Source of the DNA: a virus
Direction: 5' to 3' (one strand)
IMG/VR virus record: IMGVR_UViG_3300037199_000014
Span: 1-21,464 of that record
Length of the DNA: 21,464 nt
The notes under the pieces are model-generated. The model worked only from the letters and a program-made list of their open reading frames with translations, was not told the DNA's origin and did no database searches. Below are positions 3,890 to 21,464 of the stretch, in pieces; the first letter of the stretch is position 1; every line of letters starts with the position of its first letter. The translations under genes and the position numbers were made by a program.

Positions 3890-3929
3890 AGCAATTTTCC
3901 TCGGGGTTGCAGTGCCCCCGGCGAAATAA

Positions 3930-3943
3930 GTCTGAAATCAGAC
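3930..3943. promoter_or_regulatory. Dyad, candidate operator for the XRE regulator
   Basis: GTCTGA-AA-TCAGAC is a perfect 6-2-6 inverted repeat ending 13 bases before the ATG of the helix-turn-helix gene at 3957. XRE repressors commonly bind 14-16 base dyads beside their own start. A second small hairpin (CGGGG 3902-3906 with CCCCG 3916-3920) lies just upstream. I see no convincing -35/-10 pair with standard spacing in this 97-base gap. Confidence 0.4.
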
Positions 3944-3956
3944 CCTATGCTCGAAG

Positions 3957-4157
3957 ATGAAAACCAGAACGATATCCGCCGCTGCCCGGTTCCGTCGTTT
4001 CCGGCGAGCTACGAAGATGACGCAACGCTTGCTGGCTTTGTGTCTTGGGATCAGTCGCCGATCGGTCATAAACATAGAAAAGGGCGTGCACGATCCGTCG
4101 CTTCGGCACCTGGCGGAATTCGACGCGCTGGTGGAAAGGCATAAAAGTGGACTCTGA
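3957..4157 (+). CDS. XRE-type helix-turn-helix regulator
   Basis: A 66-residue protein. From about residue 13 the order is typical of an XRE/Cro-type DNA-binding domain: FRRFRRATKMTQRLLALCLG, then ISRRSVINIEKG as recognition helix and turn, then DPSLRHLAEFDALV. It is a minimal single-domain form, like Cro-sized phage regulators or XRE antitoxins. The ATG at 3957 is chosen because a later ATG at 4017 would remove the first helix. A shadow ORF in another frame begins at 3947. The gene overlaps the next start by 11 bases, so both are probably one transcript. The dyad at 3930-3943 is a natural candidate for autoregulation. The ribosome site is weak, which fits low expression. Confidence 0.7.
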   Translation: MKTRTISAAARFRRFRRATKMTQRLLALCLGISRRSVINIEKGVHDPSLRHLAEFDALVERHKSGL

Positions 4158-4527
4158 AAAATCCATCCCGCTCCCATTGACTGGAGAAGAAGTCCAAGAG
4201 GCCGCGCTTTACAGCCTGCGCGAGTGTATGCAGAAAAACTGCCACTTGAGCGCCGGAAACGCTTACACCGCAGCCCGGATCGAAATCTCGGTCAAGATGA
4301 CACTGTTTGACTATGGCCGCGAAATCCGGAACAACGAAGTCTTGACGGTCAATCTCGACTCAGGATTACCCGCAGAGAGCGAGCCAGAGACCGTAGAGGG
4401 CTCGCTGACGGTTGAACCTGTTCCACCCAACCAACTTCGCGTAGAGACCGAGCAGCCCGTCCCTGTGGCTACCGTTCAAGACGGGAAGAAGGTTGTCAAG
4501 CACTTACGGTATGCGCCCCGAAAATGA
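4147..4527 (+). CDS. Hypothetical protein, 126 residues
   Basis: Starts at a GTG preceded by GGAAAGG at good spacing, inside the end of the XRE regulator gene. The N-terminal half (residues about 10-60) appears mixed helix and strand (EEVQEAALYSLRECMQ, then ARIEISVKMTLFDYGREI). The second half is Pro, Glu and Val-rich and probably extended (VEPVPPNQLRVETEQPVPV). No known motif. The stop overlaps the next ATG as ATGA, indicating coupled translation with the following gene in the run toward the terminase. Its place just before the terminase suggests an early packaging or regulatory accessory, but that is inference. I do not recognise the family. Confidence 0.6.
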   Translation: MDSEKSIPLPLTGEEVQEAALYSLRECMQKNCHLSAGNAYTAARIEISVKMTLFDYGREIRNNEVLTVNLDSGLPAESEPETVEGSLTVEPVPPNQLRVETEQPVPVATVQDGKKVVKHLRYAPRK

Positions 4528-4865
4528 GCCTCGAAGACGAATTCGTGCGTGACACCCGAGCAATGGAGCGCATAGCGTCTGCCCTTGAGAGATGGGCTAC
4601 AATTGCCGAGAAGCGTTTCGAGAAAGAATTTCCAGAACCGAGGCCCAAACGCGATGTCGAACTCATCCGATCTGACGCCACAGAGCGAGCCGAGCAGTAT
4701 GGCGACAAGCCTCCCGATGGCTGGCTCGACGAAACTCCGAAAGAGGCTGAACCTTCCCGGTTCCAAAAGCGGCTCGAAGAAGCTGGCCCTAAAGCGGCTC
4801 CCAAGGGGAGAGGCCGCGCTTCTAAGGTTCCTGAAGGGGACGGGAATCAAGCCAAGCCAAGTTGA
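4524..4865 (+). CDS. Charged helical protein upstream of terminase, unknown
   Basis: A 113-residue protein whose ATG shares bases with the previous TGA (ATGA overlap). The N-terminal 40 residues are strongly helical and charged (MSLEDEFVRDTRAMERIASA, then ERWATIAEKRFEKEF), with coiled-coil character. The rest is Pro, Glu, Lys and Arg-rich and likely disordered, ending GRGRASKVPEGDGNQAKPS. It overlaps the terminase small-subunit ORF in another frame over most of its second half. Its coding character is better than that of the overlapping frame between 4585 and about 4830, so I think this frame is translated throughout. It could be a DNA-binding accessory to packaging; no motif proves this. Confidence 0.6.
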   Translation: MSLEDEFVRDTRAMERIASALERWATIAEKRFEKEFPEPRPKRDVELIRSDATERAEQYGDKPPDGWLDETPKEAEPSRFQKRLEEAGPKAAPKGRGRASKVPEGDGNQAKPS

Positions 4866-5382
4866 GACGGCGCCGAATATTTCGTCCGTATTTCCCAACC
4901 GCCAGTCCGTGATTGACGCACTTCGTTTCTCGGCAGCGCCTGCCGCGATTGGATTCTTGCAGACTTACGACGCGACCCCGTCCTGTGACCGCAGGCTGCT
5001 TTCGTTCGAAGCCATCGCACTCAAGTGCCAAGCAAACTTCGCAGAGTTGTTCGGCGCAATGATGCTGGCGTTTCAGTCGTTTCAGGCGCAGAAAAGCGCG
5101 GCACTGGTCATGGGAGAACATCCCGGCATAGTCGCGGCCAGTGTGAAGTTTGCCAAGAAGTCGAAAGGCATTCAGGATCGCAAGATGCTGCATGAAGCTG
5201 TGCGTTTCCTGCCGACGCCGAAGGGTTCAAGCATCAACTTCAATTTCCCCGGCAAAGAATCGGAGCCCCCGGACGAAGGCGAAGCGACCTCGCCCGAGAT
5301 GGAAGCTCTTTTTCCCATGATTACTCATCGGGAAGAGAAGTGGCAGCACGACAGGTCAAGAATGTTGGAGGGAGATAAATAA
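4654..5382 (+). CDS. terS: Probable terminase small subunit
   Basis: Assigned mainly by position, directly before the large terminase, where phages normally encode the DNA-recognition subunit. The ORF is open from 4585. Candidate starts are TTG 4585, ATG 4654, 4699 and 4717, and GTG 4909. I use 4654, which has a GAGG about 10 bases upstream, but the true start may be later. The stretch after about 4860 has the most protein-like sequence: RQSVIDALRF, then helical segments (LLSFEAIALKCQANFAELFG, AMMLAFQSFQ), then GIQDRKMLHEAVRFLPTPKG and an acidic tail. A helical core with a flexible C-terminus fits a TerS oligomer. No classic helix-turn-helix is obvious. The 4654-4865 part would be encoded in two frames. 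Confidence 0.5.
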   Translation: MSNSSDLTPQSEPSSMATSLPMAGSTKLRKRLNLPGSKSGSKKLALKRLPRGEAALLRFLKGTGIKPSQVETAPNISSVFPNRQSVIDALRFSAAPAAIGFLQTYDATPSCDRRLLSFEAIALKCQANFAELFGAMMLAFQSFQAQKSAALVMGEHPGIVAASVKFAKKSKGIQDRKMLHEAVRFLPTPKGSSINFNFPGKESEPPDEGEATSPEMEALFPMITHREEKWQHDRSRMLEGDK

Positions 5383-5383
5383 A

Positions 5384-7534
5384 TTGTACTCGCCAGTCGT
5401 CATTGCCAAGACGCTCGACACCTTTGAGGCCCAAAACGGCTGGCGACCGGAATATCACACTCTCGGAGAAGTGGACGAGTGGAAAGCCTACCTCGAATCC
5501 TTGGTTGACATCGAAGAAAATCAGGCCGGCAAGTCGTACTATATCAAAGACGGCTTGCGGCTCACGCAGGCTCGGCAAAAACAAATCCAGAAATTCATTA
5601 TCAACGAGCAGTTCCTCTGTTTCGCAGACTCAGCATATTGGGAGAGCCGCTACGCTTGGATTTGCGACGACAAGAACGAAATCTTTCGCTACAAACCGCG
5701 CAAGTCGCAGCAGATTTTCCACAAAATTTTGGAGCCTTTTGACGAGAATCAGTTTGCTATAGAGATCTTCAGCATCAAAGCTCGCCAAGTGGGTATCACG
5801 ACCGCAACCGCGATGAAGTTTCTACACCGACTTTTGTTCATACCTAACACTCAGGCAGTTATGGCGTCGGTCAGAACGGCCAGTTCGGAACTGATTGGCC
5901 GGATGCTGGACGTTTGTTGCGATCGGCAACCGTTCTGGCTGGGACCATCGAAGTCCAGTACGAAAGCGGCTACTCCGAAGTGGACAAACGGCTCGATTCT
6001 CTCGATTCAGTCGGGCTCGCAGGCAATGGGAATTGCGCAAGGGTGGACGCCCACAGCAATTCACGTGTCCGAAATAGCCGACATTCCTCGCCCTAAAAAA
6101 GTCCTTGAAGAAGGGTTGTTCCCCGCAGCGCACCAGTCGCGCAAATTATTTTTTGTTCTTGAAGGGACAGGGGGAGACTCAACTAGTTGGCAAGCAGAGA
6201 AATGGCGCTACTATAAGGCTAATTACGGCAAGGATGGTGGACGCTTCCTTTGCATGTTTATCACTTGGCCGTGCGCGAGTGATCTGTATCCCCAACCTGA
6301 TTGGTTGCGCCAGCACCCCGTTCCCGAGGCGTGGAGGCCCCTAGAAGAGACGAAGAGGATGCAGCGCAAGGCGGAACTCTACATTCAGTCAACCGACTAC
6401 CTGGCGCGAATCATGGGCTCGAATTGGTCGATGCCCCCCGAGCAGGCATGGTTTTGGGAAACCAAGTACCGCGAGGCTGTCCAGAGCCATACCGTGAAAG
6501 TGTTTCTTTCGCAGTACCCGGTGACCGACGATGAAGCGCTCCAGTCGAAAGACGATCTCGTGTTTTCGGAAGACGTGATTGCCGATGTGGGCAACCGGAG
6601 CGAGAAGCAGTACGAAGCCTATGCCATTACCGGCAAGTCCGTCCTGATCGGCCAGAACGATGAACCTTACGAACCGGACCCGTCAGAAATCGACTACGAG
6701 AAGCCGCGCATCCCAGTCTCTTGGAAGTCGAAGCAGGGGAACATGGTCTTTTGGGAGCTGGTCCCGCTACGGGAATTCAAGGACACCGACGACACGCTCT
6801 GCTTCAATAAAGTTCTGATCTTTAAGCACCCGGAAGAAGGCAGTGATTATTCCATCGGGATCGACACGGCAGACGGTCTCGGCTACCCTGACGAAGACCG
6901 CTCGGTGTGTACAGTTCTTGAGAATCACACGGGGATGCAGCGCGACGAAGAGGCGGCGACGTTTGTCTCGAATCAGGTCAATCCGCCGCAGATGGTGTCG
7001 ATTGCGGCGTGCCTCGCGTCTTACTACGGCCAGTGGTATGACCAGAGAGCGCATACGAAAGACCCTCGCGGCTGCAAGTTCATCATCGAGCAGAGAGCGC
7101 GGTACGGAGACGACTGCCAGAACCAGCTCAAGCTTATGGGATTTTTCTGGCATCACCTGTTCCACACGATTGACGACAAGAAAGTGTCGAGCGAGAAGGC
7201 GCACAAAATGGGATGGTTCTCGAATGCCTGGAGCGTGCCGTTACTCCTCAACGGATTCACGAATGCGCTACAGGGCGGATGGATCAAAATCAGCCATCCC
7301 ATGACCTTGCGGCAGTTGAAGACTTGGGTCAGAAAAACCTCGAACACGGGCAAGACAAAACTCGATCACGAAAGCGGAAAGCATGACGACAACCTGAGAA
7401 CCATCGCGCAGGCTTACTACACGTTCCACGAAAAAGACATCGCGGCCGAACGTCATCAGGGGAAATACGAAAGCGCCCAAGAAAAGCAACCGCCACTGAA
7501 CATGGACTGGTGCGAGAATACGATTACGGTGTAA
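5384..7534 (+). CDS. terL: Terminase large subunit (ATPase and nuclease)
   Basis: A 716-residue packaging motor. It starts at a TTG one base after the previous stop, with a strong ribosome site (GGAGGGAGA, 5371-5375 region). The ATPase domain shows a Walker A-like KARQVGITT at residues 132-140, in the variant form usual for terminases, and a Walker B-like IHVSE at 226-230 with the catalytic Glu. The C-terminal RNase H-fold nuclease shows the acidic residues in order: YSIGIDTADG (Asp 494), FIIEQ (Glu 569) and KHDDN (Asp 668, Asp 669). All key residues are present, so the enzyme should work. At 716 residues it is longer than the common 450-600, with the extra length mainly N-terminal and in the linker (about 400-480). 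It docks on the portal and pumps DNA into the prohead. Confidence 0.93.
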   Translation: MYSPVVIAKTLDTFEAQNGWRPEYHTLGEVDEWKAYLESLVDIEENQAGKSYYIKDGLRLTQARQKQIQKFIINEQFLCFADSAYWESRYAWICDDKNEIFRYKPRKSQQIFHKILEPFDENQFAIEIFSIKARQVGITTATAMKFLHRLLFIPNTQAVMASVRTASSELIGRMLDVCCDRQPFWLGPSKSSTKAATPKWTNGSILSIQSGSQAMGIAQGWTPTAIHVSEIADIPRPKKVLEEGLFPAAHQSRKLFFVLEGTGGDSTSWQAEKWRYYKANYGKDGGRFLCMFITWPCASDLYPQPDWLRQHPVPEAWRPLEETKRMQRKAELYIQSTDYLARIMGSNWSMPPEQAWFWETKYREAVQSHTVKVFLSQYPVTDDEALQSKDDLVFSEDVIADVGNRSEKQYEAYAITGKSVLIGQNDEPYEPDPSEIDYEKPRIPVSWKSKQGNMVFWELVPLREFKDTDDTLCFNKVLIFKHPEEGSDYSIGIDTADGLGYPDEDRSVCTVLENHTGMQRDEEAATFVSNQVNPPQMVSIAACLASYYGQWYDQRAHTKDPRGCKFIIEQRARYGDDCQNQLKLMGFFWHHLFHTIDDKKVSSEKAHKMGWFSNAWSVPLLLNGFTNALQGGWIKISHPMTLRQLKTWVRKTSNTGKTKLDHESGKHDDNLRTIAQAYYTFHEKDIAAERHQGKYESAQEKQPPLNMDWCENTITV

Positions 7535-8258: not shown

Positions 8259-8455
8259 TTACGATAACGATAAGACAGGAAGAACTGTGCGGAACTTGGC
8301 ACGCAGATTTTAGCGATGAAGAGCACACGCAACATTTCAGTGGGCACGCTTGGCAGCTCTCAGACTGGCTAAGCGAGTTTAACTGTCCTCGTCCTCTGCT
8401 ACGCAAGTACGCTGGCGAGATTTCTGCACAAGTTAAGTATATAAGTCCCAAATGA
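8255..8455 (+). CDS. Small hypothetical protein, 66 residues
   Basis: Starts at the ATG of an ATGA overlap with the mini-ORF and ends in an ATGA overlap with the glycosyltransferase gene, so it is translationally embedded in the operon. The sequence is compact with alternating strand-like (MITITIRQEELCGTWHADF) and helical (WQLSDWLSEFN) parts, aromatic residues and three His. No family is recognised. Its last codons are made from the second copy of the 15-base repeat (VKYISPK). Confidence 0.5.
   Translation: MITITIRQEELCGTWHADFSDEEHTQHFSGHAWQLSDWLSEFNCPRPLLRKYAGEISAQVKYISPK
8435..8449 (+). repeat. 15-base repeat, copy 2
   Basis: An exact second copy of AAGTATATAAGTCCC, ending two bases before the ATG of the first glycosyltransferase gene (8452). 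Here there is no matching GGGACT upstream and no T-run, so it is not a terminator. It could be a protein-binding site, a phage promoter element or a recombination scar. Confidence 0.7.
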
Positions 8456-9636
8456 AACCTATCCCGCTGCTCATCTTCTCCGATGCAGTCTCGTCACCAA
8501 CTGGTTTGGCGCGGATCACGCGCGACCTCGCCAGCCGCATCCACGCGAACCTCGCAGACGTTTTCAGGGTTGCCACAATCGGATACGGAGGATCGGGCTC
8601 CAGTAAGTTCCCGTGGACGCAGTATTCGTGGACGCGAAACGAAGAGTGGATCGTCCACGATCTGCCAGAAATTTGGGAAGACTTTGCCGGCGGCGAGCGC
8701 GGCATATTTTTAAGCATCTATGATCTCCATCGGATGTTCTGGTTTGCGCGGCCGGAAACCTGCTCGGATCAGAGAGTGCGTCGGTTCCTTGAAAAACTTC
8801 CGTTTCGCAAATGGGGATACTTCCCAATCGACGCGACCGGGCCGAATAACAAGCTGTCGCTGATGCTTGGAGAATGTCTCAAGGGATATGACCGGATCTT
8901 GTGTTACTCGGAATGGGCGCGAAAGATCGTGGAGAATACGGTTGGTCAAGAGCAGAGCGACAAGCGTGACTTGGATCAACTTCCCCACGGCATTGATACC
9001 TCCGTGTTCTATCCGCGTCCTCGCGCACGCCAGCGTCAGATGTTCGGACAGATGGCCGTGGGCAAGGAAGTGGCAATTCAGGATGACGAATTACTGGTCG
9101 GCATCGTTGCCACGAATCAGGCGCGAAAGGACTACGGATTGGGCATTGCGACCTGCGCGGAACTGGCAAAGACGCGCAAGGTCCGCATCTGGATTCACAC
9201 AGACGTACTCGATCGGCACTGGTCGATTCCGTACCTGCTCGCAGACTTCGGACTGAATCGCGGGAACCTGATCTCGCTCGGATACTTGAGCGACGACACG
9301 ATGGCGAAACTCTACTCGGCGTGCGACGTGTCTCTCGGGATCGGGCTCGCTGAGGGATTTGGTTTCCCTCTGTTCGAATCCCTAGCCTGCGGATGTCCGG
9401 TTGTCCATTGCGACGACGGAGGAGCAGCGGAACATTTGCCAAGGGAAATGAAAGTGCCCGCTGAGATATATAGGATTGAAGGCGTGTATGGCTGTCATCG
9501 CGGAGTCCATGCGCCGTCTGAATGGGCTAAGGCCGTTCTAGCACTGGAACCCGGTCTACGTTACACAGTACCGAAGCATCTTGATTGGAACAATCTCTGG
9601 CCCCAATGGGAAGCATGGTTGCGAAAGGGAATTTAA
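8452..9636 (+). CDS. GT4-like (GT-B fold) glycosyltransferase
   Basis: A 394-residue protein starting at an ATGA overlap. The N-terminal domain begins with a strand and Gly loop (FSDAVSSPTGLARITRDLA), as in GT-B enzymes. LPHGID at 177-182 marks the interdomain region seen in GT4 enzymes. The C-terminal domain has the E-x7-E motif in EGFGFPLFE (Glu 301 and Glu 309), followed by SLACGCPVV, the usual nucleotide-sugar binding region of GT4 retaining enzymes. The length is normal for a complete enzyme. It would transfer a sugar from a nucleotide-sugar donor, with unknown acceptor: phage DNA base, virion protein or host polysaccharide. It is coupled (TAATG) to a second glycosyltransferase and lies between terminase and portal genes, which favours a virion-related target. 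There is no membrane segment, so it should be cytosolic. Confidence 0.88.
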   Translation: MKPIPLLIFSDAVSSPTGLARITRDLASRIHANLADVFRVATIGYGGSGSSKFPWTQYSWTRNEEWIVHDLPEIWEDFAGGERGIFLSIYDLHRMFWFARPETCSDQRVRRFLEKLPFRKWGYFPIDATGPNNKLSLMLGECLKGYDRILCYSEWARKIVENTVGQEQSDKRDLDQLPHGIDTSVFYPRPRARQRQMFGQMAVGKEVAIQDDELLVGIVATNQARKDYGLGIATCAELAKTRKVRIWIHTDVLDRHWSIPYLLADFGLNRGNLISLGYLSDDTMAKLYSACDVSLGIGLAEGFGFPLFESLACGCPVVHCDDGGAAEHLPREMKVPAEIYRIEGVYGCHRGVHAPSEWAKAVLALEPGLRYTVPKHLDWNNLWPQWEAWLRKGI

Positions 9637-10416: not shown

Positions 10417-12459
10417 ATGCCCGAGCAAAAACTACTCGACTGGCAAGTCCCAAATTTCGAGGCTGATGCAACTCGCCGGCAAGATTGGGTAATCGAGCAG
10501 GTCCAAGAAGGTGAGAACTGGCTGGAAAGCCAGGACGTAAATTCAAGCGAAGCCAATCTCAGCCTTTTGAGCGCCCGCGGTACAGAAAAACTCAAGTCCA
10601 ACAGTCTAAAATCAGACATTCGCAAGTTCGTGGAGACGATCTCCGATATTCGGGAGATTGCGACTTTCGGCAGTGGGGCCGACGAGTTTAAGAGCATCGT
10701 TGAGATGTTCAACAAGGTCGTGAAAGTCGTCTACCAGAAGTCCCACTTTCCACGCCAATCCCGCCAAGCACTCCAGTATTCAGTTGCTCTCAAGCGCGGC
10801 TACCTGTGGCCGCGATACATTCGGAATGAGTTTGGGTGGGGGACTGGCGACATCCAATTCGACGCGCTTGGACCCCGAGAGGTATTGCCGAGTCAGGTTC
10901 CCCGGTCCAACGACATCCAGGGGGCATACGCCGTTACCATCGTTGAGTGCATGGGCGTGGCTGAGGCCCATGCTCGCTTTCCAAATAATCAAGACGAACT
11001 GATTCCCATTTCCAGATTCAAGTACACGTCCCCGAATCAGGTGCGCCGGCACGAATACTGGGACCGGCGTTACGGGAACGAAAAGCAGGATTGGGAGCAG
11101 CGCTACTGCGAGATCAGGCATACGTTTGTTCGAGACCTCCGCATCAATCGCACTGGAAACATGCTGCCAATGGGCGACTGGGGCGATCGTGACGGCGTGA
11201 ATTCCCCCTTGACGAGCTGGTCTTACGAAGTACCTTCGGTCGGATCGCTGATCTCGTGGACTAATCCCGAAAACGGAATTGCCGCATCGCGCAAGGCCAC
11301 AGTGGAAGACTGCCGGATATATCCCAACCTCCGGCAGATCATCACAAATCCCGGCATGAACAGGCCGCTTTACGACGGGCCAGCGTTTGACCTGCATGGG
11401 CAGATGCCGCCAGTGCAGTACGACGTTGACGACTGGCCGTGGATGGCGATTGGTTTCTCTTTGCTGGACGATGTAGCGAGTGTCGAGAAAGGCAGCCGTG
11501 CGTTTCTCGACCTGATGTATCGCGTTCTTCGCGCGAAAATGAATCCGCTCAAAGGCTACGATCTGAATGCTGGTGTGCCACGCGAAGCTTTGAAAAAACT
11601 CGACTGGCTAGATGACAACGGGGACACGATTGGCACGGATGGAGATCCGAGAAAGGCGCTGCAATCTCTCCTGCCGGATAGCGTGAACGTCAACAAGGAA
11701 GACTTCACGATGTACGAACTTCTGGACAAGTTGCGCCAGAAGACGCTCGGACTGAACGATCTCGGGAGCCTTGCACAACTGAAATTTAATCTATCGAGCG
11801 AGACAGCGGATAAATTACTTGAGACCATCGGGCCGATTGCGAAGGGGATTGCCGGGAATCTCGAAGTAGCGCATGCCAAGATCGCGCAGATGTTGAAGTA
11901 CATGATCTTGCAGTATTTCAGCACGCGCAAACTTATGTCTTATGTCGGCCCGGACGGCATATCGACGGCAGTTTTCGATCTTGATCCAAATTCCATCGTG
12001 CCATCGCATTTGCCGTGGGAAAAAGATAAAACCAAAACAAGTGAAATATCGCGGCTGGAGCGGGCGAAGTGGTTTGCTGAGAATCTCGATGTGATCTCTG
12101 TTCCAAGTTTTCTGTTGAATGTTACGCAGATGCAGGAGCAGATGAAGTGGCTCAATTTCCTGCAACGCGGGATGCCGGTATCGTTCTCGACGGCGATGAA
12201 GAAACTTGGAGTTGAGAACTGGGGCGAGACGCCTGGTGCAACAGAGTTTGAGAAGTACAAACATGAGCAGTTCGAGCTTCTGGAGATGAAGGCCAAAGCC
12301 GCGCAGATCGCGCAGGTAGAGGGGTTGGGCGGCGGTGACGACAAGAAAGGCCAAGGCAAGGGAGGCGGCAGGCCGCCGAGTGGCAAGAAACCGCCCAAGC
12401 TCGAACAGCGTGGCAACACGACGGGGAACCCGCGAACAGTGGTAAGCCAGAGCCAGTGA
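10417..12459 (+). CDS. Portal protein
   Basis: A 680-residue protein starting at an ATG two bases after the previous stop. It is called portal from position (after the terminase, before scaffold and capsid), size and features: an N-terminal helical region, a mixed central part with many Trp, Tyr and Arg residues (residues about 110-310), a long helical stem-like stretch (about 420-520; ELLDKLRQKTLGLNDLG and IAQMLKYMILQYFS), and a flexible Gly/Lys/Pro-rich C-terminus (GGGDDKKGQGKGGGRPPSG). Large portals of 650-750 residues occur in several podovirus groups. It would form the dodecameric ring at one vertex, bind the large terminase during packaging and then the connector. The family call is confident by context; I cannot name the closest relative. 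Confidence 0.8.
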   Translation: MPEQKLLDWQVPNFEADATRRQDWVIEQVQEGENWLESQDVNSSEANLSLLSARGTEKLKSNSLKSDIRKFVETISDIREIATFGSGADEFKSIVEMFNKVVKVVYQKSHFPRQSRQALQYSVALKRGYLWPRYIRNEFGWGTGDIQFDALGPREVLPSQVPRSNDIQGAYAVTIVECMGVAEAHARFPNNQDELIPISRFKYTSPNQVRRHEYWDRRYGNEKQDWEQRYCEIRHTFVRDLRINRTGNMLPMGDWGDRDGVNSPLTSWSYEVPSVGSLISWTNPENGIAASRKATVEDCRIYPNLRQIITNPGMNRPLYDGPAFDLHGQMPPVQYDVDDWPWMAIGFSLLDDVASVEKGSRAFLDLMYRVLRAKMNPLKGYDLNAGVPREALKKLDWLDDNGDTIGTDGDPRKALQSLLPDSVNVNKEDFTMYELLDKLRQKTLGLNDLGSLAQLKFNLSSETADKLLETIGPIAKGIAGNLEVAHAKIAQMLKYMILQYFSTRKLMSYVGPDGISTAVFDLDPNSIVPSHLPWEKDKTKTSEISRLERAKWFAENLDVISVPSFLLNVTQMQEQMKWLNFLQRGMPVSFSTAMKKLGVENWGETPGATEFEKYKHEQFELLEMKAKAAQIAQVEGLGGGDDKKGQGKGGGRPPSGKKPPKLEQRGNTTGNPRTVVSQSQ

Positions 12460-14216: not shown

Positions 14217-15482
14217 ATGCCATACCCGTTATTTGATCCGCAGTACAATAACGTCGAAGTAAGCACCCGCGAGTCGATTCGCAAGAATGTGATTTCGGAG
14301 TGCTTTTTCGTGGATACGCCCCTCCAAGACATCCTCCGGCGCTACGGCGTGGTTGAGGACTTCTTGGGCGGCTCTGGCATGGTGGAAGCCTACAACTATG
14401 CGCGCCTGCAAGGCATGGCGGTAACGCCGGGGCAGACAATCACGGTGACTCGCAACCAGGTTGCAAGCGCTGCGAAGTTCTACGAGAAAGCGTATGCGGT
14501 CTATACGCAGATTGAGGACTTCGAGTTGGATGTCATCAACCGGGCTGGCGACACGCAAGCCATCGACGAGCGAGCACTACTTGAGGCGAACCTTGTCTCG
14601 CAGATGAACACGATGCTCGAAATGGACGGCTACCGTCACGGACAGCCCTCGGCAGCCAATGGCGGAACTGCGGGCGTCTCAGATGATCGCTCGAAGTCGT
14701 CCAACGGCTTCTTTGAGGGCTTCTCGAACGGTGTTGACCCCTCCCCCGACGGAAACGTGTTTACAACGACTGGCGGCGTGACGCGCAACGGCGCCACCGG
14801 CCAAGCCTACAACTCGACCCCGTACTACTGTGGGCAGTCGAACGGATATCCGGGGCCGATTACCTACCCGGTCCTGACCAACGTTGTCGCGCAACTGCTC
14901 ACCCTGAACGGCAAGGCCAAGGTCGGAATCACGAGTCCGTTTGGATGGGCGGCCTTGGTGAACATGCTTCGCGCGATAGCTCGCGTCGATCAGCAGAGCG
15001 TGAAAGAGGGAACGGACTTTGGGTGGCCCTCGGTTGACTTCTTCGGCGTCAAGATTTACGCCGATCCGTTGTGCCCTTCGGGTAAGACTTGGAATTATCT
15101 CCCTGGCGGCAACACGGCAGCGTTTGGGACAGCGGCGCCAAACACGAATTTTGTGGATGGCAGCGGCAACACGACGAAACTGACCACTTACACCACGCCA
15201 ACGTACTTGTCGAATGGTGTCGCGATTGCTGCTGGTGCGGCTTCTCCGACTGGATCGAATTTTCCGTCGGCAACGGTCATTCAGCCTTCGGAGTTGCTGT
15301 TCCTGTTCGATCCTGAAGCAATCAAACTGCGTCCGACCGCCGAAAAGAGCTGGTTCTTTGCGACGAAGATCAAGGAAATTCCAGACAACATCAGCGCCGC
15401 GAATATGTTCCAGCGCTTGGCAACGAATTTGTACGTGTACAACACTCGGCACGGCTTAATCGTGTCGGGATTTACCGCTTAA
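14217..15482 (+). CDS. Major capsid protein (probable)
   Basis: A 421-residue protein with a strong ribosome site (GGAAAGGTGA) and an ATG 16 bases after the scaffold stop. The layout fits a capsid protein: an N-terminal arm (MPYPLFDPQYNNVEVSTRES), a long helix-containing middle (DFELDVINRAGDTQAIDERA), a likely insertion rich in Gly, Asn, Ser and Thr (about residues 145-210), an HK97-like spine region (VAQLLTLNGKAKVGITSPFG), a second Gly/Thr-rich loop (about 290-345) and a C-terminal stretch with LLFLFDPEAIKLRPTAEKSW. The two loops may be surface-exposed. The call rests on position after the scaffold, size and composition. The HK97 fold is inferred, since almost all tailed phages use it. Confidence 0.78.
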   Translation: MPYPLFDPQYNNVEVSTRESIRKNVISECFFVDTPLQDILRRYGVVEDFLGGSGMVEAYNYARLQGMAVTPGQTITVTRNQVASAAKFYEKAYAVYTQIEDFELDVINRAGDTQAIDERALLEANLVSQMNTMLEMDGYRHGQPSAANGGTAGVSDDRSKSSNGFFEGFSNGVDPSPDGNVFTTTGGVTRNGATGQAYNSTPYYCGQSNGYPGPITYPVLTNVVAQLLTLNGKAKVGITSPFGWAALVNMLRAIARVDQQSVKEGTDFGWPSVDFFGVKIYADPLCPSGKTWNYLPGGNTAAFGTAAPNTNFVDGSGNTTKLTTYTTPTYLSNGVAIAAGAASPTGSNFPSATVIQPSELLFLFDPEAIKLRPTAEKSWFFATKIKEIPDNISAANMFQRLATNLYVYNTRHGLIVSGFTA

Positions 15483-16495: not shown

Positions 16496-17497
16496 TTGAG
16501 CTTGGTCACGATGGCAAAGTCTCTGGCGTTGGAGATCCCCAACACGTCGCAGATTTTCGCCTCAAACAAACTCAGTGAAGCCCTCGCCAAAATTGAAGAC
16601 GAAACAAGCTGGTCATTCCAGACAAAGACGGGCGGCTGGCTGATTCCCGGCATGGTTGCCAGTTTGGGAACGGTCACGACGACGCCCTACAGCAACGAAG
16701 TGATTGGAGATGCCGTCGCAAGCGCGATCTGGGCGGGCTTAATAGGGCATCCGTTCTTAACCGAACTCCAGTTTCGAAATCCCTCATACGCCCTTTACGA
16801 CATCGTTGCGATCAATGGCAACAACCCGCCGTTCATTACGCTGGTTCTCGACCGCCCGTGGATGGAGCCGCCGGCAGGACCAGGGCAGCAGTATTACATC
16901 TACCAAGCGTACTTTCCTGTGCCGGTTCTAAATTTTCGGTCGTTCTCGGAGATTCGAGACACGACAAACGGAGACTGGGTATCGTACACGGGCATCTCGC
17001 AAGACGATTTGTCGCTGGAAGACCCACAGCGCGTTATCTTTGGTCCGGCACTTCCAACCTATGCCGTGCCTTTTGGAATCGACCAAAGGCCCAATAGCGC
17101 CACTCCGGGATACCTCCGGTATGAGGTCTGGCCTCACATCCTGAGCCTCTGGCCGCTCGCGTTCACCTACAAGTACCAAGGGCCGCAGTTGGTGAATCCC
17201 AGCGACATGGTTCCCAACCCGATTACTGAAGAGTTGGTCATGTGGAGAGCAAAGGAGATGTTGTATCAATATGCCGAAGCGCAGAAGGGGCAAGATGTTC
17301 AACGAGGGTCCGGGGCCGACTTTCGGTTCCTTGCTGAAATGGCACGCAAGGAGTATGTCGAGTGTCTAAAAAAGACCAGAGCGGTAGATGCAAACCTGCA
17401 TAACGACTTCTTTACGCGCCCGAAGCGCCGTTCGGATGCGATGAACGATGGATTCTCAACGACTCGACTCGGGCAATTGAATGTTGGAAGGTGGTAA
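16496..17497 (+). CDS. Head-to-tail connector/adaptor-like protein
   Basis: A 333-residue protein starting at a TTG with a perfect AGGAGG five bases upstream; an ATG at 16511 is a weaker alternative. The N-terminal helical part (MAKSLALEIPNTSQIF and NKLSEALAKIEDETSWSF) resembles gp4/gp11-type adaptor starts. The centre is strand and loop-rich with many Pro, Trp and Tyr (residues about 90-220). The C-terminal helical region (about 240-300; TEELVMWRAKEMLYQYAEAQ) and charged tail fit the helices that pack on a portal ring. It is placed between the capsid genes and the fibre gene. No motif is unique, so the name is from position and secondary-structure pattern. Confidence 0.5.
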   Translation: MSLVTMAKSLALEIPNTSQIFASNKLSEALAKIEDETSWSFQTKTGGWLIPGMVASLGTVTTTPYSNEVIGDAVASAIWAGLIGHPFLTELQFRNPSYALYDIVAINGNNPPFITLVLDRPWMEPPAGPGQQYYIYQAYFPVPVLNFRSFSEIRDTTNGDWVSYTGISQDDLSLEDPQRVIFGPALPTYAVPFGIDQRPNSATPGYLRYEVWPHILSLWPLAFTYKYQGPQLVNPSDMVPNPITEELVMWRAKEMLYQYAEAQKGQDVQRGSGADFRFLAEMARKEYVECLKKTRAVDANLHNDFFTRPKRRSDAMNDGFSTTRLGQLNVGRW

Positions 17498-17499
17498 GC

Positions 17500-17862
17500 A
17501 TGTCAACTTCAGCAACGATCACGATTACTGACATTACGCAGCCCGCGCAGAATCTTTTCACGCTGCTCTCGAAAGGTTCTATGCCGGGGTACACGGTTGT
17601 CCCCAACGGCGGGATCATCACGCCAATGACATTGATAGGCGGAGTCAGTTACCTGTCTGTGCAAGCCTCTTTGAGCAATTCTGCAATTGTGTACAAGGGA
17701 GACGAAAAGACCGCGAACGATGGGAGCAGGCAAGGGAAAGAGATGCCTGCCGGGAGCGCCGATGTTATTCAAGGCTTGCCGACATCGGTTAATTTGCAGG
17801 AAATCTATCTGCGGGCAAGCGCGAACGGAGCGAAAATCAATGTTGAAATTCATTACTGTTAG
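17500..17862 (+). CDS. Small beta-rich structural protein, unknown
   Basis: I start this at the ATG at 17500, with GGAAGGTGG just upstream; a GTG at 17491 lies inside the previous gene. The 120-residue protein opens with a strand-rich Thr/Ile segment (TSATITITDITQPAQNLFTL), has GYTVVPNGGIITPMTLIGG in the middle and ends SANGAKINVEIHYC. It looks like a small beta-sandwich, perhaps a tail or head-completion protein. The last 23 bases overlap the signal-peptide gene in another frame. No family recognised. Confidence 0.55.
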   Translation: MSTSATITITDITQPAQNLFTLLSKGSMPGYTVVPNGGIITPMTLIGGVSYLSVQASLSNSAIVYKGDEKTANDGSRQGKEMPAGSADVIQGLPTSVNLQEIYLRASANGAKINVEIHYC

Positions 17863-17995
17863 TGCCCTACTGCTTTGTGCGGCAGTGAGCTTTGCTCAAT
17901 TCGAGAATCCCAGTGTGGACGCCGCACAGCAGATCATGCAGGACGCGCTGGTGGCGGCGGGATATCAGCACGCACTGGTCGCGGAGATTGGGTAA
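17840..17995 (+). CDS. 51-residue protein with Sec signal peptide
   Basis: The ATG at 17840 lies inside the end of the previous gene. The N-terminus is a textbook Sec signal: MLKFITVSALLLCAAVSFA then Q, with a likely cut after Ala 19. The mature peptide would be about 32 residues (FENPSVDAAQQIMQDALVAA, ending AGYQHALVAEIG), helical and mildly acidic. The next gene carries a signal of the same length and the same Phe-Ala-Gln junction, so the two are probably related in origin or function. A GTG or ATG further upstream in this frame (from 17687) would destroy the signal. Function unknown; perhaps an envelope-targeted accessory of the fibre. Confidence 0.6.
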   Translation: MLKFITVSALLLCAAVSFAQFENPSVDAAQQIMQDALVAAGYQHALVAEIG

Positions 17996-18015
17996 CCAGA
18001 AAGGAATGGCAGGAG

Positions 18016-21000
18016 ATGAAGGCTCTCAAACTGTTCGTACTGCTGATTCTCTTGTCCCTTCCTGTCTTCGCTCAGTATCAGGCTTGGAATGGTGACTGCT
18101 CCAAGGGTGGGCAGAAAGTAGTCACACAGGGTTCGGTCTCCAGTACCCTCGTGCTTGCTTCCTACCCGCTCTGCCTTGTTTCCGTCTATTACACCGGGAC
18201 GACAAACCAAATCTCCATATTCTCCACCGCTACGGGCGGAACGATCGCGCAGCCGTTCACGGCGAACACGGATGGATCTATTTTCTTCTACACCACGCCG
18301 GGGGTTGCATTCGACGTGTTGATGTCTGGTGCGGGGATGCCCGCACCCAAAACTTTGACTGGCGAGATGGTAGGCGGCGCCGGCGGCGGTGGAGGGAGCG
18401 GGATTAGCAGCCTCGGCATGACGGCGCCAACTGGCATGACCATCACCCCTACGTCGCTATCCAACAGCGGGACGTTCGTCTTTACCTGGACCGGGCAAAT
18501 TCCATCGTCGGCTGTTCCAAATAATTCCGCCAACACGACCGGAACCGCTGGCGGCCTCTCGGCGGGAGCGACCATTGCAGGCGTGTCGGATGGCTGCCTA
18601 AACGTAGCATCCAGTGTGATTGGCTCGCAGCCGTGTGTGTCTTATCCGTCGGGGAGCGGGATCCCGATTGTTTCCGCTGGAAGTTCTTGGGGTTCAACTC
18701 TTGGCCCGGTAAACGGCGGGATTCCATTTGGCGCGGGCGGCGCGTGGACGGTTTCAACCGCACCCGCCTTGAGCGCCGCGAACATGATTAACTTCCCTCA
18801 GTTCAATCAGAATACGACAGGATATGCCGGAGGCTTGGCGGGATGTCCGAATCCGGCGACCGTTGCCGCGGGCTCGATTTGTTACTCGAACGGGTCAGCG
18901 TGGAATTGGATAGCTGGCAACACGTCTTCGACGGCTCAAATTTTCCAAGAACAGTCTGGCGTTCCGTCTTTCGTATCTCCACCCGGGGGAACCACCGTAA
19001 ACGCTTCAGGAGTTCCTCTGGCTGGACAGATTGCCGTCTGGACAAACTCGAACACCATTCAGGGACTAAACACACTGCCCAATGGAACCCTCGGGGCTAC
19101 TCAGACTTCGGGCGACAATACTGCGGCTCTCGCCACAGATGCCTTTGTGCAAGCAGCAGTGGCCAGCATGGGAACTGTTCCGGCCGCAGGGCAGGTAGCC
19201 ATCGGAAATTCAGGGGGCACGGCCTATGCTCCTCAGACTCTCACGCAAGACATTTCCTTAACCAGTGCCGGGGTAGCCACGGTCGTAGGAGCACAAGGGA
19301 AGCTATTCCCCGCGTTGGCCGCATTCGCCACGTCGCCATACCTGGGTTACGTCGCTGGGGCGTGGACCGCATTGAATCCTTTCTCCGGCCCAACATTCAC
19401 TGGCACGGTGACAGCCAGTGGACTAGGTGGGAGCGGAACGCAGTGTGTCAGTGTCACTAATACTGGACAACTTCAAACCAGCGGTGTAGGCCCCTGTGGA
19501 ACTGGTGGTGGCGGTGGCGGCAACATGACCGGCAGCGGGGCGTCCACGGCCAACGATATTATTCTGGTTGGAACTACGGGTACCCCTTTAAGCACGGCCG
19601 TGGACGCCGGCTTCGGATTTCCCTTGGCGAACGCTCACCTTGCCAATTCGAGCATCGGCATCTCTGGGACCACGAATCAGATTGCCAGCAGCACCCTGAC
19701 TCCGTCTCTTGGCGGATCGACGATTCTCAGTATTGCTAATCCGTTCACTTTCCCCGGTCCAGCAACTCTAGCGGCTGGGACAACCTCGGCGCCGTCCTTG
19801 GTGATCCCGTCTGGCGTGGCCATGACTTCGCCATCAATAAACGGGCAGATGTGGAATCTTTCTGGCGTTCCTCAGATCTACGACGGAACGCACACGAATT
19901 CATTGGCAAGGGTTCAGGCGGCTCCAGCCTCGGGCAACATGATGGGAGCAAGTGGCACGACTGGAGTTTTGGCGGCGGTTCCCGGAACGTCGCTGGATTT
20001 CACGAATGGTCTGGTAAGCATTGCGCCAATCGGAACCGGCGTCGGGTTGTCGGTGACTGGTGACGCTTCGGTTTCTGATCTGCAAAGGTTCTTTCTGCAT
20101 GGTAACAGCGGATCAAATTGGGGCATGACAGTTCAGCCCTATTCTGATTCGCTTGGGGCGCAGCTCGCCTTTCAGGATTCGTCTGGGCGCAACGGAGTAT
20201 TGAATGCAACGAATCTAAGACTGAACGATAGCTCCTCCGATTATTCTTTAGTTAGCCCTCTTGGATTATTTGCACAGGCCCAGCCGAGCGGAAATTACAT
20301 ATCTCTCGTACCCTCTATCCCGCCAGCGGAGTTCTTTGGAACATCGCTGCGATTTATACCGAATCCTGGGAGTGGGGGATATAGCAGCGGCTATGCGATA
20401 TCTTTGACGGCTGCGGCCATCGGGGACGTTTTTGATGTGTTTAACAATGCTTCGACAAAGACCTTCTTTATCAACAACATTGGCTACCCGCAGATCACTG
20501 GAGGGACTTCGGGACAGTGCATCTCAGCCAATGGTGTTGGGGCTGTGACGTGCGGAAGCGGAACGGGCAACGTCAACACGGCTACCAACAACACCTATGC
20601 GAACACGACGACGCAGACGTTTGCTGGCGGGGACTCGTTCGGTCCAGCCGGCCTGAATCTTGTCAATCCGATCACAACTACTTTTCCTTACGTAGTGACT
20701 ACCACATTTCCCGGCAGCGACTTATCGGCTCCTTCGACTGCCAACCAGATGTCCTACGGTCCGGGAGCGAGCGGGCAACTTGAAGAGGCAATCAACAACG
20801 GCGGCACGACGGCCAGCGGTCAAATGCTGCACGTGCCAATTGGCGGCAGCGGGTTCACGGTAGGGCACGTGTTTACGGTCGGATCAAGTACGCTAGTTGG
20901 CGGAGAACATTTCATTACAGCGGCAGATGGTGGGGCGCTTTATCCGGGGACTGTGACTTACACGGCCACGCAGACGGCATCTCTAGTGGACAACGGGAAG

Positions 21001-21464
21001 AAAGTGCAGATGAATTGTCCATCGTCCTGTGCCTACGTTCTGCCGAATCCACAAGTATCTAGCACGTTTAGCATCCGGCTTGTGAGCGTCGGCATCGCAA
21101 ACGCTGGTTTCATAGCAAGTACAGGCATGACGGTGAACGGGTCATCGGGACCTTTCTCGGGGAGTCTGATACCTTACATCAGCACGGGGATTTCTTCCGA
21201 TTCCGCAGTGAGCACAAATTACGTTGTAGATGCTCCCTTAGTTTCTGGAACGGGAATCACGTTCACGCCAGCAACAAACGGTGTGACAATTTCGGCCACT
21301 GGTTCCGGCAGCACAGCTCCTGTCTTTTTCTCCAGCACGACCGCGCTATCGACTTCAGCAACGGATTACATCGGTGTGGGGCAGTTCGCTGCGAATGAAA
21401 CTACGGTCGCCCTTCCTATTCCGCGAGCGGCGACAATCGCAAATCTTGCTTGCGCCCTCAATGG
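18016..21464 (+). CDS. Giant fibre/receptor-binding-like protein with signal peptide (3' partial)
   Basis: The frame is open from the ATG at 18016 to the window end, at least 1149 residues. A ribosome site AAAGGA lies 11 bases upstream. Residues 1-19 are a Sec signal (MKALKLFVLLILLSLPVFA, then Q), which is unusual for a virion protein. The rest is low in Lys, Arg and His and very rich in Gly, Ser, Thr, Asn and Ala. Gly-rich hinges occur near residues 119-128 and 495-503. Fibre-type repeat motifs are visible: GATQTSGDNTAALATDAFV near 360, FTGTVTASGLGGSG near 475, and a segment near 583-622 (LAAGTTSAPSLVIPSG, then INGQMWNLSGVPQIYDG) like repeats of many metagenomic phage fibres. It probably trimerises and binds the host surface. 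Either the virion fibre itself is exported, or this is a host-surface or released decoy; the sequence cannot decide. Confidence 0.78.
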   Translation, partial: MKALKLFVLLILLSLPVFAQYQAWNGDCSKGGQKVVTQGSVSSTLVLASYPLCLVSVYYTGTTNQISIFSTATGGTIAQPFTANTDGSIFFYTTPGVAFDVLMSGAGMPAPKTLTGEMVGGAGGGGGSGISSLGMTAPTGMTITPTSLSNSGTFVFTWTGQIPSSAVPNNSANTTGTAGGLSAGATIAGVSDGCLNVASSVIGSQPCVSYPSGSGIPIVSAGSSWGSTLGPVNGGIPFGAGGAWTVSTAPALSAANMINFPQFNQNTTGYAGGLAGCPNPATVAAGSICYSNGSAWNWIAGNTSSTAQIFQEQSGVPSFVSPPGGTTVNASGVPLAGQIAVWTNSNTIQGLNTLPNGTLGATQTSGDNTAALATDAFVQAAVASMGTVPAAGQVAIGNSGGTAYAPQTLTQDISLTSAGVATVVGAQGKLFPALAAFATSPYLGYVAGAWTALNPFSGPTFTGTVTASGLGGSGTQCVSVTNTGQLQTSGVGPCGTGGGGGGNMTGSGASTANDIILVGTTGTPLSTAVDAGFGFPLANAHLANSSIGISGTTNQIASSTLTPSLGGSTILSIANPFTFPGPATLAAGTTSAPSLVIPSGVAMTSPSINGQMWNLSGVPQIYDGTHTNSLARVQAAPASGNMMGASGTTGVLAAVPGTSLDFTNGLVSIAPIGTGVGLSVTGDASVSDLQRFFLHGNSGSNWGMTVQPYSDSLGAQLAFQDSSGRNGVLNATNLRLNDSSSDYSLVSPLGLFAQAQPSGNYISLVPSIPPAEFFGTSLRFIPNPGSGGYSSGYAISLTAAAIGDVFDVFNNASTKTFFINNIGYPQITGGTSGQCISANGVGAVTCGSGTGNVNTATNNTYANTTTQTFAGGDSFGPAGLNLVNPITTTFPYVVTTTFPGSDLSAPSTANQMSYGPGASGQLEEAINNGGTTASGQMLHVPIGGSGFTVGHVFTVGSSTLVGGEHFITAADGGALYPGTVTYTATQTASLVDNGKKVQMNCPSSCAYVLPNPQVSSTFSIRLVSVGIANAGFIASTGMTVNGSSGPFSGSLIPYISTGISSDSAVSTNYVVDAPLVSGTGITFTPATNGVTISATGSGSTAPVFFSSTTALSTSATDYIGVGQFAANETTVALPIPRAATIANLACALN

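Follow-up and report, generated by a model that had tools for sequence, protein, structure and literature searches.

Secretion signals ahead of the virion-anchoring tailspike domain in a group of soil phages suggest spikes that mature outside the cytoplasm

Tailed-phage assembly is taught as a process that stays in the cytoplasm until lysis. The question raised by the locus described here is why a phage of this kind would place a secretion signal at the start of a spike gene, and in which compartment the product would then mature. The window (the whole stretch of DNA analysed) is a 21,464-base genome fragment of a tailed phage, IMG/VR record IMGVR_UViG_3300037199_000014, that ends within a long fibre gene. 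The presence of a secretion signal directly before the domain that ordinarily plugs a tailspike into the virion, in a group of soil phages of which two have been grown on an acidobacterium, suggests that spike maturation takes place outside the cytoplasm and that the particles acquire their spikes only when the cell bursts.

The window fibre and its signal

The tailspike or fibre ORF occupies 18016..21464 on the + strand and encodes at least 1149 amino acids, remaining open at the window end; the "giant fibre-like" label given to it in the first-pass annotation is retained. This open-ended ORF matched no family in Pfam or PHROG, and a search of plasmid records gave no match. Translation of 18016-18075 gives MKALKLFVLLILLSLPVFAQ, with lysines at residues 2 and 5, a hydrophobic core, and V-F-A followed by Q at residues 17-20. 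The basic n-region, hydrophobic core and A-x-A-like cut site were all recognized by a rule-based scorer, which passes 9 of 10 textbook E. coli Sec signals and has a chance rate of 1.2% on 14,100 internal windows from the same fibres; permutations of the first 45 residues of the window fibre pass in 12% of cases. The predicted signal peptide, of the Sec/SPase I type, comprises residues 1-19 (MKALKLFVLLILLSLPVFA; 18016..18072, + strand) with the cut placed before Q20, and its core hydropathy is 3.81, compared with a mean of 3.12 in relatives. Judged by its sequence the window fibre begins with a textbook Sec/SPase I signal, for which export and cleavage are predicted. The earlier identification of a Sec-type signal at 18016 was therefore sound, and we share the view that such a signal on a fibre is unusual.

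A Shine-Dalgarno-like GAAAGGA (17999..18005, + strand) precedes the fibre ATG, which lies 20 nt downstream of the stop codon of the preceding ORF. There is no in-frame ATG, GTG or TTG between the window signal and the first Cys of the domain that follows, and so the signal is not an artefact of start-site annotation. Nine relatives do begin at the domain (see below), as would be expected if the true start lay downstream and the hydrophobic stretch were untranslated or a non-functional product of chance. Such an explanation is nonetheless extremely improbable, given the Shine-Dalgarno sequence and missing alternative start in the window, and given that the signal occurs in 38 of 47 clusters of relatives against the 1.2% chance rate.

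The surrounding genes include those of a late structural block. On the + strand the window carries the large terminase (phrog_5989; 5384..7534) and portal protein (phrog_156; 10417..12459), both assigned by PHROG match, the major capsid protein (14217..15482), a homologue of the Tunturi major head protein, and a 333-residue portal-tail adaptor or tail protein (16496..17497), the equivalent of Tunturi gp11. The last assignment comes from its predicted structure, whose fold resembles the podovirus portal-tail proteins GP4, Pa223 and SU10. The order terminase-portal-capsid-tail adaptor-fibre is common to the window and its relatives: the terminase is present in 26 of 26 relatives' records tested, and the 333-residue protein in 24 of the 26. 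The window tailspike gene thus lies beside podovirus short-tail adaptor genes, and within this phage group fibre genes with and without a signal both adjoin the adaptor gene. Between adaptor and fibre, also on the + strand, are a 123-residue protein (17491..17862), which has a 120-residue equivalent in the same slot of the relative L025, and a 51-residue ORF (17840..17995) that scores as having its own signal (MLKFITVSALLLCAAVSFA followed by QFENP). In L025 the slot of this small ORF holds an 879-residue signalled fibre; the window ORF may be a truncated fibre remnant or a small exported protein. A gene for a GT4-type glycosyltransferase (8452-9636) is also found inside the structural block, between terminase and portal.

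Relatives with and without the signal

Relatives were sought with the mature domain alone, which kept the signal from influencing what was found. Viral contigs were scanned twice with a profile, and the second, larger scan yielded 57 distinct IMG/VR loci; the domain is thus found in these loci and in the cultured Tunturiibacter phages Tunturi_1 and Tunturi_2. Two candidates, L004 and L005, were rejected as relatives, having matched an internal fibre motif only, in ORFs with no signal. The loci, minus the aberrant L065, were clustered at 85% identity together with the window and Tunturi_2, giving 47 rows. A signal is present in 38 of these (37 by rule and one borderline case with a clear hydrophobic leader), and the other nine start directly at the domain. 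Conservation in homologues from uncultivated phages, which the first-pass annotation had proposed as a check, is therefore borne out by the rule-based scorer, with one cultured phage among the 38 clusters, and homologues do not consistently start downstream of the signal. A scan of bacterial and archaeal genomes for proviruses or host homologues returned 15 pattern matches, none of which was confirmed, and that scan thus gives no evidence of a provirus or of a secreted protein taken from a host.

Identity between rows is 30% in the signal region (20% for shuffled signals) and 47% in the domain, while the hydropathy of the signal is kept. Low identity with preserved hydropathy is the usual pattern of real signals, and it bears on whether the N-terminus might remain uncut and anchor the spike in the tail or in a membrane. 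A hydrophobic N-terminus could pack against the tail hub, but the conservation pattern is not that of a packing interface, the signal-less relatives keep the same anchor domain, and the junction between signal and domain coincides with the signal-less start. Of the three options that the first-pass annotation had offered, the uncut tail anchor fares poorly on these grounds and we regard it as very unlikely. Export followed by attachment to the virion fares best, since a virion-anchoring domain comes first after the signal and the signal-less relatives start where the signal ends.

The junction itself is exact. Of the nine signal-less rows, eight have their start Met exactly 7 residues ahead of the first conserved Cys column (Cys1), and in signalled rows the cleavage region falls where the signal-less forms have that Met. 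Removal of the signal would accordingly yield about the same N-terminus as that of a signal-less spike. Five of the 38 signalled rows (L019, L041, L043, L053 and L054) keep an ATG at precisely this place, with 0.37 expected (binomial p 3e-5); the signal may have been grafted on at this point, or may have been lost in some forms down to a Met that was retained. These codons might allow dual use of the gene, in which a second start, or else inefficient export, supplies a cytoplasmic pool for virions beside an exported pool that acts on the envelope. The five ATGs, however, have no Shine-Dalgarno sequence, no such codon exists in the window or in most relatives, and the conserved Cys pair described below suggests that the main product resides in an oxidising compartment; dual use is accordingly rather improbable.

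Tunturi_1 and Tunturi_2 are podoviruses of Tunturiibacter psychrotolerans (Acidobacteriota) (PMC11924767, a paper in which we found no mention of virion proteomics), and theirs are the only annotated phage records that match the window's own N-terminus. Their gp12, annotated simply as a hypothetical protein, begins with MKKFIQLALLFILPAAASAQ and, like the window fibre, combines signal, domain and Cys pair in the slot after the tail protein; these phages are the sole cultured relatives found. They differ from the window, which has the truncated signalled ORF upstream, in that gp13, gp14, gp16 and gp17 are also signalled, so that in Tunturi_2 five of the six adjacent genes gp12-gp17 carry signals. 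Of these, gp14 is annotated as a pectin lyase and gp17 has 34 Cys. In the 50 kb of Tunturi_2 that were scanned, a signal was found on no other gene annotated as structural, and the annotated fibres of Tunturi_3 and Tunturi_4 have none. Tandem runs of 2-5 signalled fibre genes occur in several relatives; the closest, L025 (record G001, 60,888 bases), has four in succession, of 879, 697, 412 and 2408 residues. Signalled neighbour genes accompany 15 of 36 signalled and 1 of 9 signal-less loci, a difference that is not significant (p 0.13).

The domain behind the signal and its cysteine pair

The mature N-terminal domain of the window fibre (residues 20-120; 18073..18375, + strand) was identified by profile and by model. 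A 50-row domain profile matched tail spike proteins in the PDB, 9vyg at E 7e-4 and 7eeq, the "Tailspike head-binding domain", at E 0.048, whereas PHROG and Pfam scans with the 50 domain rows gave weak, uninformative matches only. An AlphaFold2 model of the domain (pLDDT 86) was matched by Foldseek to the tailspike head-binding domains of Pan3 and Pam1 with probability 1.00, TM 0.50-0.57 and modest E-values of 2.5e-3 to 0.15, and to many viral tailspike N-domains (E 3e-5), several of which precede pectate-lyase bodies. By tblastn the domain is 44-50% identical over about 55 residues to enterobacterial phage tailspikes, in ORFs that start 10-21 residues before the match, too short a distance for a signal. 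On profile and fold, then, the domain behind the signal is a tailspike particle-binding (head-binding) domain, and the export signal directly precedes the part that ordinarily plugs a spike into a short tail. In the primary product this domain is preceded by the 19-residue signal; it is N-terminal only in the predicted mature protein.

Comparison with the known domains sharpens what is new. Those of the cyanophages Pam1 (7eeq) and Pan3 (9vyg), which match the window domain in profile and fold, join the spike to a short tail; no signal is known to precede them, the match in the solved chains beginning at about residue 19, and the window adds to them a Sec signal and a Cys pair. The EPS-depolymerase tailspikes of Pantoea phage Vid5 (gp10), Serratia phage MTx and Klebsiella phage KA2-1 have the same N-domain and no signal.

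The Cys pair comprises Cys28 (18097..18099, + strand) and Cys53 (18172..18174, + strand). Both Cys are present in 33 of 38 signalled and 0 of 9 signal-less clusters (Fisher p 1.5e-6, not corrected for kinship). One or both are missing in five signalled clusters, and in the signal-less rows the Cys1 column holds Ala, Ser or Val. The tree is poorly resolved and implies about eight changes of signal state. It offers three contrasts on well-supported branches: in about two of them the Cys pair accompanies the signal, and in none does it run the other way. Cysteines elsewhere in the fibres are also paired. In the window fibre, 12 of the 13 Cys are closely paired (28/53, 194/207, 277/289, 477/494, 835/846 and 1001/1005; 5.0 expected, p 4.5e-4), and in the pooled signalled fibres 376 of 517 are, with 247 expected. 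Signal-less fibres, though they contribute fewer Cys, show a comparable excess (42 of 59 vs 30 expected), and pairing along the shaft is thus not specific to the signalled class; nor does the total number of Cys outside the domain differ between signalled and signal-less fibres (p 0.20). It is the pair in the N-domain that separates the two classes.

Proposed export and late attachment, and the alternatives

The sequences themselves show a predicted signal that is conserved, a domain that can be identified, an exact join between the two, and a Cys pair that goes with the signal. A scheme that would accommodate them begins with export of the tailspike precursor of a short-tailed phage by the host Sec pathway. 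Signal peptidase I would remove residues 1-19, so that the mature protein begins exactly at the virion-anchoring domain, and in the periplasm the spike would fold and its disulfides form (C28-C53 and the further close Cys pairs), while capsid and tail are assembled in the cytoplasm as usual. Lysis would mix periplasm and cytoplasm, whereupon spikes could meet the particles and complete assembly by binding to the tail adaptor. Cleavage, oxidation and docking after lysis are what we infer, and we give this scheme of Sec export, periplasmic cleavage and disulfide bonding, and docking on tails after lysis slightly better than an even chance. It has against it that, after lysis, spikes and particles in the medium would have to find each other at high dilution. 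A broader proposal falls a little short of even: that a group of tailed phages moves its adhesin set to the periplasm, where the spikes are cleaved and acquire disulfides, and completes assembly outside the cytoplasm only after lysis, and that gain or loss of a signal right at the start codon, followed by the Cys pair, has turned the trait on or off several times.

The signal could also belong to proteins that are exported and never become part of a virion: secreted or released enzymes or adhesins, whose task would be to remove receptors or matrix polysaccharide, to prevent superinfection or to serve as decoys, and whose anchor domain would be a leftover or would hold them together. A Sec signal does target the periplasm, the signalled Tunturi gp14 is annotated as a pectin lyase, and several signalled fibre genes may stand side by side. 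The particle-binding domain is, however, conserved directly behind the signal, the genes lie in the late structural block adjoining the tail adaptor, the same slot is occupied by the signal-less relatives, and no other anchored receptor-binding protein is seen in the window, an incomplete genome. Such a role outside the virion is therefore unlikely, if deserving of more weight than the other alternatives.

Attachment of a spike as a last step has a precedent in P22, the tailspike of which is made and attached in the cytoplasm, has no signal, is added last, and assembles on heads in vitro. The spikes proposed here would dock likewise at the end of assembly and would differ in compartment, which would be the new element. 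Sec signals are used by virion proteins of filamentous phages, the coat proteins g3p and g8p; those phages are unrelated and their virions are extruded through the membrane, whereas the present phages are tailed and presumably lytic. Our search of openly licensed PMC papers turned up neither a description of Sec signals in tail fibres or tailspikes nor a precedent for a Sec-exported tailspike. If post-lysis docking of exported spikes holds true, adhesins can mature in another compartment and be added outside, with a virion-anchoring domain lying behind a Sec signal across dozens of phages and linked to a Cys pair, and the model is testable in a cultured phage, Tunturi_2. It would also offer an interpretation of many signalled fibre genes from soil viromes that are labelled "hypothetical", together with a warning that filters for secretion signals could misassign phage spikes as secreted proteins of the host.

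Some further features of the fibre cassettes may be recorded. Signalled fibre N-domains of a second type, which have a Cys pair of their own (P-x-G-x-C ... C-x-x-G-x-W), recur either upstream of the main fibre or in its place (L025 1291-3930; L027 2840-3859; L032 702-1940; G021 30027-32462), and a similar motif is found inside the window fibre at Cys 277/289. In the nearest relative the fibre cassette ends with the 2408-residue signalled protein (L071-L072; G001:19013-26239), which has 75 Cys. Locus L066 has two adjacent signalled fibres, 1220-2749 and 3914-7366; the mature part of the first starts QTGPISGFCE and resembles the domain that has Cys1; in the second the domain is present and lacks the Cys pair.
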